Position numbers and translations under genes: made by a program
The notes under the pieces: model-generated
What the model was told of the DNA's origin: nothing
Database searches by the model: none
The model's input: only the letters and a program-made list of their open reading frames with translations
Part shown: positions 3,360 to 36,394 of the stretch, piece by piece
Layout of the letters: every line of letters starts with the position of its first letter
Position numbering within the stretch: the stretch's first letter is position 1
Source: Coriobacteriia bacterium
GTDB taxonomy: Bacteria; Actinomycetota; Coriobacteriia; Anaerosomatales; SLCP01
Direction of reading: 5' to 3'
DNA length: 64,000 bases
NCBI GenBank assembly: GCA_030603745.1
Contig: JAUVXE010000006.1
Coordinates: forward strand, 1 to 64,000

Positions 3360-4301
3360 GTGTCGTTCACTGCCGAGGTCAAAGACGAGCTGTCGAGGAT
3401 CGAGCTCAAGCGCCAGTGCTGCCTGAAGGCGGAGCTCGCGGCGCTCGTCCGCGTCGAGGGCACGCTGCACATCACCGGCAAGGAGCGCTACCGGCTCGAG
3501 ATCGCCACGGAGACCGCTCCGGTCGCCCGGAAGACCATCAAGCTGCTGCACGGGATCTACGACCTCAAGACCGAGCTCACCGTGCGGCGCAGCGTGCTGC
3601 ACAAGACCAACAACTACCTCATCACCGTGGTGAGCCAGGCCCGCCTGCCCCAGGCGCTCAACGAGCTCGGCGTGCTCGACGACACCCTCTCGCTCACCTA
3701 CGGCATCCTGCCGCGGCTCGTACGGCGGGACTGCTGCGCGATCTCCTACCTGCGCGGCGCGTTCCTCGGCGGAGGGTTCGTCGCGGACCCCCACGGGGAC
3801 TTCCACTTCGAGCTCACCGCCGAGACCGAGCAGATGGCCGACGACCTCGTCAGGCTGATGGCCCGCTTCGGCATGCACGCCAAGACCACGAGGCGGCGGG
3901 GGCAGTACTCCGTCTATCTCAAGGGGGCCGAGCCGATCGTCACCTTCCTCGCGCTCGTGGGGGCGCACCGCGCGCTGCTGCGGACCGAGGACGTGCGCAT
4001 CGTCAAGTCGATGCGGAACGAGGTCAACCGGCTCGTCAACGCCGAGACCGCGAATCTCCAGAAGTCCGCCGAGGCGGCGATCGCCCAGATCGAGGCGATC
4101 CGGGTCCTCGAGCAGACGCGCGGGCTCGAGAGCCTCCCGCCGGCGTTGCGTGAGCTCGCCGCGCTCAGGCTCGAGCACCCCGACGTGAGCCTGCGCGAGC
4201 TCGGGGAGCTGGCCGACCCCCCGCTTTCGAAGTCGGCGGTATATCATAGGATCAGGCGCATCGAGGAGCTGGCGGTTCGCGGCACCTCCGGCGACGGATA
4301 G
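3360..4301 (+). CDS. whiA: WhiA sporulation/cell-division regulator
   Basis: A 313-residue protein starting at GTG 3360 with the characteristic SFTAEVKDELSR opening. The N-terminal half is the LAGLIDADG-like fold, seen as the LRGAFLGGGFVADP segment near residues 130-145. The C-terminal 80 residues form a helix-turn-helix ending in SKSAVYHRIRRIEEL. WhiA binds DNA and in streptomycetes controls sporulation septation genes; in Bacillus it affects nucleoid organisation and division. Its retention beside rapZ-yvcK is the conserved arrangement. No sporulation-specific gene cluster lies nearby. Confidence 0.95.
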   Translation: MSFTAEVKDELSRIELKRQCCLKAELAALVRVEGTLHITGKERYRLEIATETAPVARKTIKLLHGIYDLKTELTVRRSVLHKTNNYLITVVSQARLPQALNELGVLDDTLSLTYGILPRLVRRDCCAISYLRGAFLGGGFVADPHGDFHFELTAETEQMADDLVRLMARFGMHAKTTRRRGQYSVYLKGAEPIVTFLALVGAHRALLRTEDVRIVKSMRNEVNRLVNAETANLQKSAEAAIAQIEAIRVLEQTRGLESLPPALRELAALRLEHPDVSLRELGELADPPLSKSAVYHRIRRIEELAVRGTSGDG

Positions 4302-26045: not shown

Positions 26046-27287
26046 TCAGAGCGCGTCCGAGTCCCGTATCGCCCGCACGATGGCGGTCGCGATCTCCTCG
26101 GCCACCACGGGCTCGTCCTGCCACGGATCCAGGTGCACGACGGGCACGTCGTCGTCAACGCGCGCCTGGCGGGCGGCGGCGGGCAGCTCGACGAGCGTGT
26201 CGAGGTTGGTGAACGGGTAGGTGACCGGCGCCACGATGATCCGGTCGCATCCGGTCATGGCGAGGTGCCGCACCGTCTCCGTCACGTCCGGCGTCTGCCA
26301 CGAGTCCCAGCACAACCGGATGCGCTCGCTCTCGACGCCCCGCTCCGCGACCGCCGTGCGCACCCGGTTCGCGAACGAGTTCTCCTGCTCGGCGAACGCG
26401 TCGCTCCCGTGTCCGGCGGGCCCGGGGCGTCCGTGCATCACGAGCGCGACACCCGGCGCGGTGGCATCGCGCGCCGCGGCCCAGGTCCGCTCGGCGACCG
26501 CGTCGGCGATCGCGGCCGAGGTCCAGAGCGTCCGGGTGTGGAGTACCTCCGGTGCCGCTTCACCGCTGCGGGAGCCGTGGCGCGCCTCGGCGAGCGAGCG
26601 CTTCGCCGCCGCGATCCGCCGGGGTTCGGCGACGTAGGGCGAGGCGAGCACCACGCGTCCGAACCCGGCCGCGCCTGCGGCGGCGACGATCCCCGCGAGC
26701 ACGTCGCCGTCCGGACACGGGGCGACCACCGGTCCGGTGACGCGCTCGCCCTCGAGCAGTGTCTCGAGCCGCTCGCCGAGCGCCGCCGCCTGCGCGCCCT
26801 CCGGGTTCACGCCCCCGACCGCCCGGTAGCGGGCCTTGTGGCCGGCGTAGAAGAAGGGGAGGACGGCGAGAGCCGGGTCGGGCAGCCCGGTGTCGGTGAG
26901 CTCGGAGATCCGGCGCGTGACATCGCCGGGCGCGTAGCTCTCCGGCTCGAGGTCGACGAGGAGTGCGACCAGCGTGTCGGAGCCGGGTCGCGGCGGTGGT
27001 ACCGTCGGCAGGTCGCAGCGATGCCGCACGCCGCTGAGCAGCGCCGAGACGAGCGCGTAACCTCCCACCGAGCCGCCGAGGGAGACGAGTCCCGCCACGA
27101 CGGCCGCCAGCGGCGTGCCGAGGATGGCGGTGATGGCGCCGCTCGCGGTCACGGCGACCGCGAGGCCGACCGCGATCCCCGCGAGGGTGAGCGGTTCCCG
27201 ACGCCGGGGGACCACGAGCAGTCCGGCGAGCGCCGCACCGGCGGCGAACGACCCCCCGACCACGCCCGTCCATGCCAGCGGAGTCAT
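26046..27287 (-). CDS. Membrane-anchored ferrochelatase-like protein
   Basis: A 413-residue protein. Three hydrophobic helices fill residues 1-90, then a chelatase-like domain of about 310 residues. The C-terminal half has the chelatase order: VALVMHGRPGP with a candidate catalytic His, WDSWQTPDVTETVRHLA, then RIIVAPVTYPFTNLDTLVELP with a Glu in the place of the metal-site acid. A separate ordinary ferrochelatase is encoded at 58388-59380, so this is a divergent paralogue, perhaps for another tetrapyrrole. The start at 27287 is backed by a GAAGGGA site; it diverges from the thioredoxin gene. Confidence 0.65.
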   Translation of the reverse strand: MTPLAWTGVVGGSFAAGAALAGLLVVPRRREPLTLAGIAVGLAVAVTASGAITAILGTPLAAVVAGLVSLGGSVGGYALVSALLSGVRHRCDLPTVPPPRPGSDTLVALLVDLEPESYAPGDVTRRISELTDTGLPDPALAVLPFFYAGHKARYRAVGGVNPEGAQAAALGERLETLLEGERVTGPVVAPCPDGDVLAGIVAAAGAAGFGRVVLASPYVAEPRRIAAAKRSLAEARHGSRSGEAAPEVLHTRTLWTSAAIADAVAERTWAAARDATAPGVALVMHGRPGPAGHGSDAFAEQENSFANRVRTAVAERGVESERIRLCWDSWQTPDVTETVRHLAMTGCDRIIVAPVTYPFTNLDTLVELPAAARQARVDDDVPVVHLDPWQDEPVVAEEIATAIVRAIRDSDAL

Positions 27288-27338: not shown

Positions 27339-27368
27339 TTGACTAAGATACCCCCCGGGGTATACAAT
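27339..27368 (+). promoter_or_regulatory. Thioredoxin promoter with CsoR/CstR-type operator
   Basis: TTGACT at 27339-27344 is a good -35 and TATACA (27361-27366) or TACAAT (27363-27368) the -10. The spacer carries ATACCCCCCGGGGTAT (27348-27363), a palindrome with 7-bp arms ATACCCC/GGGGTAT overlapping the -10. Repressor binding there would block polymerase. The same palindrome recurs at 28628 and 35623. Confidence 0.8.
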
Positions 27369-27420: not shown

Positions 27421-27445
27421 CATCGACAAGATGGGAGGGGAGCCG

Positions 27446-27772
27446 ATGGCTTCCGACGTGCAGGACGTGACCGCAGGCGAGTTCCAGTCCGAGGTGCTCG
27501 AAGCCTCCGTCCCCGTGGTCGTCGACTTCTGGGCACCGTGGTGCGGGCCGTGCCGCATGGTCGCCCCCGAGGTGGCGAAGCTCGCCGCCCGCGCAGGCGG
27601 TGCGGTCAAGTTCGTCAAGGTCAACATCGACGACAACCGCGATGTCGCCGCGAAGTACGGCGTCATGAGTATCCCCACGCTCGTCAAGTTCGAGCGCGGC
27701 TCCGTCGCCGGTCAGATCGTCGGGGCACGAGGCGCCGACGCGATCTCCAAGGAGCTCGACCTCGGCGTCTGA
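27446..27772 (+). CDS. trxA: Thioredoxin
   Basis: A 108-residue single-domain thioredoxin with the active site WCGPC (Cys33/Cys36) and the cis-proline in MSIPT. It reduces protein disulfides in the cytoplasm and can feed electrons to CcdA. ATG at 27446 is preferred to the ATG at 27431 because GGGAGGGG lies between them at proper spacing. It is controlled by an operator-bearing promoter and followed by the DUF302, repressor and cation-transporter genes, which suggests a dedicated redox role rather than the sole housekeeping thioredoxin. Confidence 0.92.
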   Translation: MASDVQDVTAGEFQSEVLEASVPVVVDFWAPWCGPCRMVAPEVAKLAARAGGAVKFVKVNIDDNRDVAAKYGVMSIPTLVKFERGSVAGQIVGARGADAISKELDLGV

Positions 27773-27857
27773 ACGTTGCCGACAGGTGCTCTGACGTGTC
27801 ACGATGCGGGGGAGAGCGTGTGACGAGTGCGTCCGGCCGACCGGCGAACGGGACCGC

Positions 27858-28232
27858 GTGGTGGACTACGCGTACAAGCGAACAGCGACCAGGGAGTTCC
27901 CGGAGACGATCGAAGCCGTGGAGCGCGCGGTGCGCGGCCACGGCTTCATCGTGCGCAACTCCTACGACATCGGCGGAACGGTCGTGGCGAAAGGGTTCGC
28001 GATCAGGCCGCTCGTGATCCTCGAGGTCGGGCCTGAAGGGGAGGACGTGGGGCTCCCGCTCTCCCTCGTGCTGCCGTGTCGCATCAACATCTACGAGGAG
28101 GACGGGTCGGTGGTTGTCGCCGCGCTGCGCCCGACCATCTTCAAGGCCGTCTATCCCGAGCACGACCTCGAGGAGGTCGCCGAGGAGGTCGAGCGGACCA
28201 TCATCGGCATCGTCGACGAGGCGGCCGGCTGA
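27858..28232 (+). CDS. DUF302 domain protein
   Basis: About 124 residues if begun at GTG 27858 (GTG 27861 and ATG 27804 are alternatives; none has a clear ribosome site). The body fits DUF302: FPETIEAVERAVRGHGF followed by the LPCRINIYEEDGSVVV strand pair and an EEVERTIIGI helix. The function is unknown, though DUF302 proteins often occur with sulfur, thioredoxin or metal genes. It lies 85 bases downstream of the thioredoxin gene on the same strand and probably on the same message. Confidence 0.7.
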   Translation: MVDYAYKRTATREFPETIEAVERAVRGHGFIVRNSYDIGGTVVAKGFAIRPLVILEVGPEGEDVGLPLSLVLPCRINIYEEDGSVVVAALRPTIFKAVYPEHDLEEVAEEVERTIIGIVDEAAG

Positions 28233-28270: not shown

Positions 28271-28567
28271 CTACTTCACGCAGGACGAGTACTTGAGGAA
28301 GACGGCGATCGCCTCGTCGATGAGCTCGTCGCGACTCTTCTCCTCCTCGTCGAGGAGGCAGCGCTTCATCGAGTGGCCGATGATGTGCAGGCCGACCTGG
28401 TTGAGCGCGGACTTGGCGGCCATGATCTGGGTGAGCACGTCCTCGCAGTCCTTGCCCGACTCGATCATCGACTGGAGGCCGCGAATCTGGCCCTCGAGCC
28501 TGCGGAGCCGGTTCAGGATCCTCTTCCGTTCGGTGTCGGTCTCGAGTGGTCCGAGCGCGTCGCTCAC
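28271..28567 (-). CDS. CsoR/CstR-family transcriptional repressor
   Basis: A 98-residue all-helical regulator (DUF156 fold). Key residues: RLRRLEGQIRGLQSMIESGKDC with Cys41, and GHSMKRC with Cys70. In copper-sensing CsoR a His stands four before the second Cys (HxxxC); here that position is Ser66, while His65 is one residue off. Cys41/Cys70 without the His matches the persulfide sensor CstR of staphylococci better than CsoR; Cys96 is extra. GTG at 28567 follows GAGGTG. It is divergent from a CDF transporter across an ATACCCC-type operator, so autoregulation is likely. Confidence 0.85.
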   Translation of the reverse strand: MSDALGPLETDTERKRILNRLRRLEGQIRGLQSMIESGKDCEDVLTQIMAAKSALNQVGLHIIGHSMKRCLLDEEEKSRDELIDEAIAVFLKYSSCVK

Positions 28568-28627: not shown

Positions 28628-28644
28628 ATACCCCTGGGGGGTAT
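28628..28644. promoter_or_regulatory. CsoR/CstR-type operator between repressor and CDF gene
   Basis: ATACCCCTGGGGGGTAT has 7-bp arms ATACCCC/GGGGTAT around 3 bases, extended by T/A to TATACCCC/GGGGTATA. It lies in the divergent gap; minus-strand hexamers TTGTCC and GATGAT/GATAGT towards the repressor gene, and TATAAG towards the CDF gene, are possible promoter parts. Confidence 0.75.
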
Positions 28645-28697
28645 AAGACGGCAAGAGGGGGTGCGCGGTGGGCTACACAAGGCCGGTCGAGGGAGCG

Positions 28698-29612
28698 ATG
28701 TCCCACGACCGCATCTCGCGGATCCGGCGCGCGCTCGTCGTCATCCTGGTGCTCAACCTCGCCGTCGCCGCGGCCAAGCTCGTGTGGGGCGTCGTCTCCG
28801 GCTCCGTATCGATGCAGGCCGACGGGTTCCACTCGCTGTTCGACGGCACGTCCAACGTCGTGGGTCTCGTGGGGCTCGCGCTCGCGGCGCGACCCGCCGA
28901 CCGCGACCACCCGTACGGGCACGGCAAGTACGAGACCTGGGCCTCGGCGGCCATCGGGGCGATGCTGGCGCTTGCGGCCTACAACGTCGGCACCACCGCG
29001 ATCGGGCGGCTGCTCGCCGGCAGCCCGGCGCCTCGCGTCGACGCGATCGCCTTCGCGGTGATGATCGGCACGCTGGCCGTGAACCTCGGCGTGACCTTCT
29101 ACGAGCGGCGCCTCGGCAAGCGCCTCGGCAGCGAGATCCTCGTCGCCGACGCGAGCCACACGGCCAGCGACGCGATGGTGAGCGTCGGCGTCATCCTCGG
29201 CCTGGTCGCGGTGCGGCTCGGCTACCCGGTCGCCGATCCGCTGATCGCGCTGCTCGTCGCGGGCGCGATCGCGTACACGGCGCTCAGCGTCTTCCGGCAG
29301 GCGACCGTCACGCTCTCCGACACAGCCCGCATCGACCCGGCGAGGATCGCCGCTCTCGTCAACGCGGTCCCGGGTGTCCTCGGCTCGCACCACATCCGGA
29401 CCCGCGGCTCTCAGGCCGAGGTCTACGTCGACCTCCACATCCAGGTCGACCCGTCTGCGACCGTGACCGAGGGGCACCGGATCGCCGAGGAGGTCGAGCG
29501 CGCGGTGTGCCACGGGTTCGCCGAGGTCGTCGACGTCGTCTCGCACCTCGAACCGCTCGACGCGTACCAGTCGGACAAGACGGCACGTGAGATCGATGCG
29601 GGACTCGTCTGA
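28698..29612 (+). CDS. CDF-family divalent cation efflux transporter
   Basis: A 304-residue cation diffusion facilitator with six helices and a C-terminal cytosolic domain of about 80 residues. The transport-site motifs are HSLFD in helix 2 and HTASD in helix 5 (HxxxD in both, the common zinc/iron/manganese pattern), with DHPYGHGKYE between. ATG at 28698 with GAGGGAG upstream is preferred to the GTG at 28668, which adds ten unlike residues. The operator in front indicates control by the divergent repressor. Confidence 0.88.
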   Translation: MSHDRISRIRRALVVILVLNLAVAAAKLVWGVVSGSVSMQADGFHSLFDGTSNVVGLVGLALAARPADRDHPYGHGKYETWASAAIGAMLALAAYNVGTTAIGRLLAGSPAPRVDAIAFAVMIGTLAVNLGVTFYERRLGKRLGSEILVADASHTASDAMVSVGVILGLVAVRLGYPVADPLIALLVAGAIAYTALSVFRQATVTLSDTARIDPARIAALVNAVPGVLGSHHIRTRGSQAEVYVDLHIQVDPSATVTEGHRIAEEVERAVCHGFAEVVDVVSHLEPLDAYQSDKTAREIDAGLV

Positions 29613-35036: not shown

Positions 35037-35384
35037 GTGGCAGGCGACACACAGAGGCGGACCCTTGTGATCCTTGCGATCGTGGCGGGCGCGCTGCTGG
35101 TGTCCGGGATCGTGATCGCCATGGCGTCCGCGGGGCGGGGGAGCGCGTCGGGCTCGGCGATCACCTGGACGGTGCCGATCGTCGCGGGCATCCTGGTCGC
35201 GCTCGTGGCACTCCTGCTCGGCGAGCAGCCGGGCGGCGCCGAGGCCGGGGAGGAGCTCCGGAGCACGTCGTGCGCGGCGTGCGGCACGTCGATCATCGAT
35301 GAGTGGCGGTTGTGCCCCTACTGTGGTCAACTGCTCGAGTGTGACATGACGTTCCCTGCCGAAGGAGGACCCACCCGTGGCTGA
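35037..35384 (+). CDS. Small membrane zinc-ribbon protein
   Basis: A 115-residue protein with two helices (about residues 9-30 and 42-62) and a C-terminal rubredoxin-like zinc ribbon, CAACG...CPYCG, near residues 80-102. The function is unknown. GTG at 35037 has only a weak GGAG ahead of it. As first gene behind the sigma-54 promoter it is probably a direct target of the kinase/activator pair. It overlaps the start of the HMA gene by 8 bases. Confidence 0.75.
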   Translation: MAGDTQRRTLVILAIVAGALLVSGIVIAMASAGRGSASGSAITWTVPIVAGILVALVALLLGEQPGGAEAGEELRSTSCAACGTSIIDEWRLCPYCGQLLECDMTFPAEGGPTRG

Positions 35385-35601
35385 CGTGTCGACCATCAGG
35401 CTCAGCACGACCGGCATGCACTGCGGCTCGTGTGCGATGTTGATCGATCTGACGCTCGGGGAGCTTCCGGGCGTCGCCGAGGTCACGACCGACTACGCGA
35501 CCGGGATCTCGACCGTCACCTACGACACCACCGCGCTCAGCGTCGACGACCTGCTGGGCGCCGTCCGCGCCGCGGGATACGACGCCGTCGTCGAGGGGTG
35601 A
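35377..35601 (+). CDS. Heavy-metal-associated (HMA) domain protein
   Basis: A 74-residue protein consisting only of an HMA ferredoxin-like fold with the metal-binding loop GMHCGSC (Cys16, Cys19). Such proteins (CopZ, MerP types) bind soft metals such as Cu(I), Zn(II) or Hg(II) and pass them to transporters. GTG at 35377 is backed by GAAGGAGGA at 35362-35370. It shares the sigma-54-driven transcript with the zinc-ribbon gene and lies directly before the operator of ccdA. No P-type ATPase is present in the window. Confidence 0.88.
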   Translation: MADVSTIRLSTTGMHCGSCAMLIDLTLGELPGVAEVTTDYATGISTVTYDTTALSVDDLLGAVRAAGYDAVVEG

Positions 35602-35611
35602 CGCCGCGGGG

Positions 35612-35641
35612 TTGTGGCGGAAATACCCCTAAGGGTATACT
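35612..35641 (+). promoter_or_regulatory. ccdA promoter with CsoR/CstR-type operator
   Basis: TTGTGG (35612-35617) and TATACT (35636-35641) are 18 bases apart. The palindrome ATACCCCTAAGGGTAT (35623-35638) overlaps the -10 box; its arms ATACCC/GGGTAT equal those of the operators at 27348 and 28628. Confidence 0.8.
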
Positions 35642-35674: not shown

Positions 35675-36394
35675 GTGGAGATCGGATCCATCGGCGTGGT
35701 GGCCGCGTTCGTCGCGGGCCTTCTCTCGTTCCTCTCGCCCTGCGTCCTGCCGCTGATCCCCGGCTACCTCTCGTTCATGACCGGGCTCACCGTCGCCGAC
35801 CTCGAGGGCGGCGCGTCCCGCCGGGCCTCGCTCGTCCCCGCGCTCCTCTTCGTCGCCGGCTTCTCGACGGTCTTCATCGTGCTCGGCGCGTCGGCCAGCA
35901 TCCTCGGGTCGCTGCTGCTCGAGCATCGCTTCTGGCTCGAGCGGGCGGCCGGGCTCCTCGTGATCGCCTTCGGGGTGCTGATGCTCGGGCTGATCAGGCT
36001 GCCGTGGCTCTACGGCGAGGCCCGGTTCGACCTGTCGCGCGCCCGTAGGTTCGGGCCGGCGGCCGGGTTCGTGATGGGCGCGGCGTTCGCTTTCGGCTGG
36101 ACGCCGTGCGTGGGCCCGGTCCTCGGCGCGATCCTCGCGCTCGCCGGGGCCTCCGCGAGTGTCGGGCAGGGGGTCGTCCTCCTGCTCGCGTACTCGGCCG
36201 GGCTCGGGGTGCCGTTCGTCGCCGTCGCGGCGCTGTTCGGGACGATGTCACCCCTGCTCGCGCGCGTGAATCGCCACGCGCTGCTCCTGAACCGGGTCGC
36301 GGGCACGCTGCTCATCGCGGTGGGGCTCCTGATCGCGACCGGCCGGATGTCGCTGCTCGTGGGTGCGCTCGCCCGGGTCGTGCCCCAGCTCTGA
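35675..36394 (+). CDS. ccdA: CcdA/DsbD-type transmembrane electron carrier
   Basis: A 239-residue membrane protein with six helices. Redox cysteines are Cys23 in SFLSPCVLPLIPGY and Cys145 in FGWTPCVGPVLG, the hallmark pair that moves electrons from cytoplasmic thioredoxin to extracytoplasmic thiols, for example in cytochrome c maturation or disulfide control. GTG at 35675 follows GGAAGGA. The operator-bearing promoter links it to the same repressor as the thioredoxin gene, its natural electron donor. Confidence 0.9.
   Translation: MEIGSIGVVAAFVAGLLSFLSPCVLPLIPGYLSFMTGLTVADLEGGASRRASLVPALLFVAGFSTVFIVLGASASILGSLLLEHRFWLERAAGLLVIAFGVLMLGLIRLPWLYGEARFDLSRARRFGPAAGFVMGAAFAFGWTPCVGPVLGAILALAGASASVGQGVVLLLAYSAGLGVPFVAVAALFGTMSPLLARVNRHALLLNRVAGTLLIAVGLLIATGRMSLLVGALARVVPQL

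Follow-up and report, generated by a model that had tools for sequence, protein, structure and literature searches.

The CsoR/DUF156-family repressor encoded in the window (the whole 64,000-nucleotide stretch of Coriobacteriia DNA analyzed here) is probably a thiol sensor of a CstR-like type, with sulfane sulfur as its likeliest signal, and would govern an unusual, reductive regulon rich in selenoproteins. The residues, operators, promoter geometry, target genes and selenocysteine machinery were read from the sequence, and from these we infer DNA binding, the signal, its chemistry and the direction of the response.

The repressor gene (28271..28567, minus strand) encodes a protein of 98 amino acids with Cys41, Ser66 at the position of the ligand histidine, Cys70 and Cys96; its reading frame is the one given in the first-pass annotation and begins with GTG at 28567. 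The protein belongs to the DUF156 (CsoR/RcnR) family. It matches PF02583 with 92.9 bits (cut-off 22.8) and is the sole such gene product in the 2.14-Mb genome, and its AlphaFold2 model (pLDDT 83.7; helices 7-36, 41-73 and 79-96) has a three-helix fold for which Foldseek returned solved DUF156 members. The Foldseek search with this model did not tell CsoR, CstR, FrmR and InrS apart, and the NCBIfam equivalog cut-offs for RicR, FrmR and RcnR were all missed (44.8 bits against 133 for FrmR, 36.3 bits against 138 for RcnR). Tandem two-domain versions of about 200 amino acids are encoded in several relatives (L029 8001-8585; G009:C27:19356-19880; G021:C4:23787-24308; G017:C10:8299-8814), and the version in L029 keeps the C-terminal cysteine in its second domain only.

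Copper-sensing CsoR proteins carry a histidine four residues before the second cysteine (position C-4, the HxxxC motif). The first-pass annotation had held that the repressor retains the cysteine pair of the CsoR family, that the copper-ligand histidine is replaced by Ser66 and that His65 is shifted by one, and all of this was borne out. In alignments with solved CsoR and CstR (DUF156) structures, Cys41 and Cys70 fall on the conserved cysteines, and C-4 is Ser66, with His65 one place off; in S. pneumoniae CstR, C-4 is Asn. Among 33 distinct family members, a sample that includes order-level relatives searched as whole genomes, both Cys41 and Cys70 are invariant (33/33 each), C-4 is Ser in 31 and Ala in two, and the C-H-C copper site of Cu(I) CsoR is absent from the repressor, with a C-4 histidine in 0/33 members. 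The residue preceding Cys41 is Asp in 29 members and Glu in four; the 41 copper-type rows of our tree were defined by Tyr-Cys and HxxxC/H. Position C-5, occupied by His65, is His in 25 members, Tyr in seven and Phe in one. His65 is not a conserved ligand, because Tyr or Phe takes its place in 8/33 members, nor is it placed like the CsoR ligand, because the i-5 residue of a helix lies off the i-4 face; on these two grounds we ruled it out as a substitute copper ligand. A third cysteine near the C-terminus, Cys96, which the first-pass annotation did not mention, is present in 30/33 members and is a mark of the subfamily. The contig scan recovered a tight subfamily (L016-L029) in Coriobacteriia and Actinobacteria MAGs, beyond which identity falls to about 50% or less.

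We compared the query family with the known subfamilies in a 90-row tree, the references of which were labelled by structure or annotated context. Persulfide-type labels came from cstR-cstB-sqr-tauE loci on staphylococcal plasmids and from TusA/DsrE/TauE or rhodanese/PDO contexts. The S. aureus CstR sequence used is 90.7% identical to a S. aureus plasmid copy, and the E. coli RcnR sequence used passes its equivalog cut-off. The query family has support of 97/98, and the best tree splits it, together with the persulfide-type rows, from all Cu and Ni/FrmR rows (98/83). FrmR and RcnR are distant and have long branches, and the query family falls outside their branch. However, AU tests did not reject a grouping of the query with copper-type rows (p 0.46, or p 0.27 when Ni/FrmR rows were also placed among the others), and profiles with the ligand columns masked gave the copper and persulfide types about equal scores for the query. 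The tree was therefore rejected as sole arbiter: the AU tests, and the tree and profiles without ligand columns, leave both groupings standing. By these sequence comparisons the tree leans towards CstR, and it cannot alone carry a claim of CstR type.

The window contains three perfect G-tract palindromes, and three more are found elsewhere in the genome. The first-pass annotation had noticed neither the site at the repressor's own promoter nor those outside the window. The repressor's own putative operator, ATACCCCTGGGGGGTAT (28628..28644; TAC-N9-GTA), is in the autoregulatory register and lies between the repressor and a divergent gene for a CDF-family cation efflux transporter (28668..29612, plus strand; TIGR01297 221 bits, PF01545). 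The other two are TAC-N8-GTA sites in the promoters of a thioredoxin gene (ATACCCCCCGGGGTAT, 27348..27363) and of ccdA (ATACCCCTAAGGGTAT, 35623..35638). A one-strand count of the pattern ATACCC-N4-GGGTAT across 61 genomes of the order gave 333 occurrences, against three of a reversed-pattern control; the taxonomic placement in OPB41/Anaerosomatales was inferred. All 56 genomes with a PF02583 match carry operator sites. The only two genomes without sites (G018, 96% complete, and G033, 94%) both have no repressor (Fisher p 0.0055). In three more genomes (73-91% complete) sites are present although no repressor was detected. Motif searches were exact, and genes at operator sites were called with a simple GC-frame script. 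Alignment of 64 sites in the direction of the downstream gene placed a TTG at operator position -10 and a TATANT at +13, the latter beginning at the operator's last TAT. The predicted operator takes up the whole 17-bp stretch separating the -35 box from the -10 box and reaches into the latter, a geometry that points to a repressor that excludes RNA polymerase.

In order to describe the predicted regulon we clustered the genes starting beside 156 sites in 25 relatives and the window's own genome. A recurrent set was found behind these sites: thioredoxin, with a DUF302 gene downstream in several cases; ccdA; a rhodanese-thioredoxin fusion, which is the form in which rhodanese occurs in the regulon; a 4Fe-4S ferredoxin with a YuzD/DUF1462-like protein, divergent from a chemoreceptor-like gene; an SBF-family permease; and a FAD-binding oxidase with a divergent HAD-like gene. 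An HmcB/HybA-like iron-sulfur protein lies behind sites in four genomes. The predicted targets in the window are thioredoxin (WCGPC; 27431..27772, plus strand; TIGR01068 112.3 bits, cut-off 96.8) and the CcdA/DsbD-TM thiol-electron transporter (35675..36394, plus strand; PF02683 57.9 bits). Both were named as targets in the first-pass annotation. The DUF302 gene downstream of trx (27804..28232, plus strand; PF03625 24.8 bits, cut-off 23) is probably on the same transcript, and the order of the two is kept in several relatives. On the other side of the 27348 operator, a divergent gene (26046..27287, minus strand) whose cluster recurs at 17 sites is a possible co-target. The typical CstR targets persulfide dioxygenase, TauE and SQR were not recognized among the genes behind the 156 sites, and a search of 1.5 kb around each site gave no metallo-beta-lactamase (persulfide dioxygenase) motif. 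We call the repressor CstR-like, and not CstR, because these typical targets are absent and because the tree leaves both groupings standing.

Related repressors adjoin trxA, with a G-tract palindrome upstream, in Chloroflexota (L040, L041, L044) and Armatimonadota (L046), and in L040 a TrxB-like reductase also adjoins the repressor. The thioredoxin link thus reaches beyond Actinomycetota. A distant DUF156 repressor on a Lactiplantibacillus plantarum plasmid (L315 3633-4240) directly follows a thioredoxin gene, with a heavy-metal ATPase and an HMA gene nearby.

Two proteins of the recurrent set are strong candidates for true selenoproteins. The rhodanese-thioredoxin fusion, which has an N-terminal hydrophobic anchor, shows an in-frame TGA at DW-U-P-x-C in 7/7 examples found by motif (L098, G000:C25, operator at 3884; relatives L227, L241, L245, L258, L300 and L309). 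The YuzD-like protein, encoded after the 4Fe-4S ferredoxin (L097, G000:C20, operator at 28883, and 20 relatives), has the motif C[F/Y/W]SGG-U-GP[S/T]WSPEEIT, with TGA in 21/21 and conserved sequence continuing downstream. Both in-frame TGAs occupy catalytic-looking positions. Most of the examples inspected have a hairpin after the TGA, although the average z-scores are weak (-0.62 and -0.92). The window's genome encodes SelB (375.9 bits) and, adjoining it, tRNA-Sec (72.1 bits). A full SelB match is missing in 14 relatives; replacement of selenocysteine by Cys in SelB-poor relatives was considered and rejected, as G016 and G055 keep the TGA and tRNA-Sec passes its cut-off there. The label "SaoT-like" for the CxSGGU protein was also dropped, there being no NCBIfam match and Pfam giving DUF1462.

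The spacing of the operator half-sites bears on the type of repressor. The copper CsoR of Streptomyces has a 5'-TAC-N9-GTA-3' operator (PMC3902906), and the operator of ScCsoR, a Streptomyces sulfane-sulfur sensor, is ATACCn6GGTAT (PMC7533328), which equals TAC-N8-GTA, the pattern of the target operators described here. At eight persulfide-type reference loci the 19 TACC...GGTA sites include 14 with N8, one with N9 and four with other spacings, and 34 of the 35 sites near copper-type repressors have N9 (Fisher p 2e-11 for N8/N9, a value that overstates independence because the rows are related by descent). In the query order, 123 of the 130 predicted target (non-autoregulatory) sites have N8, six have N7 and one has N9, and the repressor's own operator has N9 in 19/19 cases (p 4e-23 against targets, subject to the same overstatement). 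The rule is not absolute, because both spacings occur with non-copper repressors from other families than the query's (nine N8, six N9). For TTHA1953, a one-base insertion or deletion between the repeats shifted the Kd about 10- to 15-fold (PMC10318464), and it is plausible that the two registers reflect a different affinity of the repressor for its own promoter. The N8/N9 distinction offers a simple sequence test for telling sulfur-sensing from copper-sensing DUF156 repressors, which are annotated alike in records as "metal-sensitive".

Alternatively, the repressor could sense a soft metal, with a thiol-only site (Cys41, Cys70 and possibly Cys96) for Cu(I), As(III), Cd(II) or Hg(II) and a regulon for metal handling, which we consider improbable. 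This would explain the CDF transporter divergent at the repressor's operator, the SBF permease among the targets, the HMA gene adjoining ccdA with CopA in its place in G014 and G015, and the N9 spacing of the autoregulatory operator, as at copper loci; the CDF gene, the HMA or CopA gene beside ccdA and the N9 operator also count against a persulfide signal. However, the ligand histidine is missing in 33/33 members, no P-type ATPase motif occurs within 2.5 kb of the 156 sites, the SBF permease fragment with its 38 bits stays below the ACR3 cut-off (283), and none of 30 CopA loci has a regulon-type operator before CopA. A strict match is absent there in 29/30; the one upstream match, in L349, is a different N9 sequence (ATACCGAGATCCGGTAT), and in L348 and L351 operator matches are downstream of CopA, before ccdA. 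The first-pass annotation had counted the nearby HMA gene (GMHCGSC; 35377..35601, plus strand) in favor of copper. In 11/12 checkable loci, all genomes but one, this gene stops shortly before the ccdA operator and so lies outside the predicted regulon, and in G014 and G015 the operator is again on the ccdA side of CopA. As evidence for copper control HMA was therefore rejected; on account of L287, where the operator comes before HMA, it retains some weight as partial counter-evidence. An HMA (or CopA) gene that immediately precedes ccdA, separated from it by the operator, forms a conserved neighborhood in the window and its relatives.

The main rival, ahead of a soft-metal sensor, is a general thiol-oxidant sensor like TTHA1953, in which oxygen, peroxide or disulfide stress would produce an intersubunit C41-C70 disulfide (perhaps with Cys96), free the DNA and induce a disulfide-stress regulon. 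We regard it as unlikely, although it deserves serious consideration, since thioredoxin, CcdA and the Sec-thioredoxin candidate suit disulfide reduction equally well. In TTHA1953, a comparable repressor of the CsoR family, oxidation by Cu(II)/H2O2 lowers the affinity for DNA through the two cysteines; this protein controls a SoxW thioredoxin operon and responded to oxidation and not to NaHS (PMC10318464), the last of which also counts against a persulfide signal. The Chloroflexota and Armatimonadota repressors, moreover, adjoin trxA (in L040 also the TrxB-like gene) and not sulfur-oxidation genes. On the other hand, one core target has a rhodanese domain, which speaks for sulfane sulfur, and the operators share the N8 spacing of persulfide-type loci. 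A sensor of aldehydes or other electrophiles, of the FrmR kind, would have the same fold and could employ the first cysteine, also used by FrmR (PMC5016687), but the long, distant FrmR/RcnR branches of the tree and the fact that formaldehyde-metabolism genes were not recognized among the targets make it very improbable.

If the repressor is a CstR-like sensor of sulfane sulfur, as we prefer, its reduced form would bind ATACCC-N4-GGGTAT within the 17-bp spacer and block RNA polymerase. On build-up of persulfide or polysulfide, Cys41 of one subunit and Cys70 of its neighbor would be modified or bridged, probably by a di-, tri- or tetrasulfide, and the repressor would leave the DNA. Di-, tri- and tetrasulfides between Cys31 and Cys60, the counterparts of Cys41 and Cys70, have been reported for CstR (PMC9774590), and ScCsoR needs both of its cysteines (PMC7533328). 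The induced set (thioredoxin, CcdA, the rhodanese-thioredoxin selenoprotein, ferredoxin with the YuzD-like selenoprotein, and others) would act in reductive thiol repair, returning persulfides to thiols and H2S without oxygen. Electrons for the reduction of persulfides and disulfides would pass via thioredoxin and CcdA, with selenocysteine at two key sites, and this reductive route of an anaerobe would replace the oxygen-dependent dioxygenase of the CstR and ScCsoR circuits. CstR has been reported to be modified by selenite and tellurite too (PMC5016687), therefore a selenium input is conceivable for this repressor. The part of the first-pass proposal that describes a CstR-like, non-Cu(I) dithiol sensor gains support from conserved residues, operator spacing and regulon; persulfide as the signal itself is our interpretation of them.

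The best-known persulfide repressors induce oxygen-dependent persulfide dioxygenases, and little is known of the means by which strict anaerobes growing on sulfur compounds detect and remove an excess of sulfane sulfur. OPB41/Anaerosomatales has two cultivated members, one of which respires S0 and thiosulfate (PMC9686372). If the sulfane-sulfur reading is true, both sensor and operator are defined for such anaerobes, together with a target set that is reductive and makes use of selenium. We tentatively suggest, as a possibility somewhat less likely than not, that a single CstR-like repressor, which would read N8 sites at its targets and an N9 site at its own promoter, links reactive sulfur or reactive selenium to oxygen-independent, selenoprotein-based persulfide reduction throughout a whole order of anaerobic Actinomycetota.

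Among known systems, FrmR, RcnR and InrS have the fold and the first cysteine in common with the repressor, but they form a separate branch of the tree and their metal or aldehyde residues are not conserved in it. The Cu(I) CsoR proteins (S. lividans 4ADZ, G. thermodenitrificans 4M1P, M. tuberculosis 2HH7) share the DUF156 fold, the C41/C70 positions and a G-tract operator. Unlike them, the repressor lacks the ligand histidine, has Asp/Glu and not Tyr before Cys41, and is predicted to act at N8 rather than N9 target sites in a regulon without a copper ATPase. TTHA1953 of Thermus thermophilus resembles the repressor in its dithiol control, its dispersed regulon including thioredoxin and its TAC/GTA operator (PMC10318464), and differs in controlling the Sox pathway and in having no reported response to NaHS. 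ScCsoR (S. coelicolor SCO0620) has both cysteines and the ATACCn6GGTAT operator, as here (PMC7533328); its circuit comprises a persulfide dioxygenase, a rhodanese and a sulfite transporter, whereas dioxygenase and TauE were not seen in the repressor's predicted regulon. Compared with CstR (S. aureus; S. pneumoniae 7MQ1-7MQ3), a DUF156 persulfide repressor, the repressor has an additional C-terminal Cys, an N9 operator of its own and a dispersed regulon with thioredoxin, CcdA and candidate selenoproteins in place of recognized cstA, cstB, sqr or tauE genes. The two nevertheless have in common the fold, the cysteine pair, a residue other than His at C-4 (Asn in CstR, Ser here), an acidic residue before the first Cys, which is found in several CstR-type sequences, and TAC-N8-GTA at their targets.
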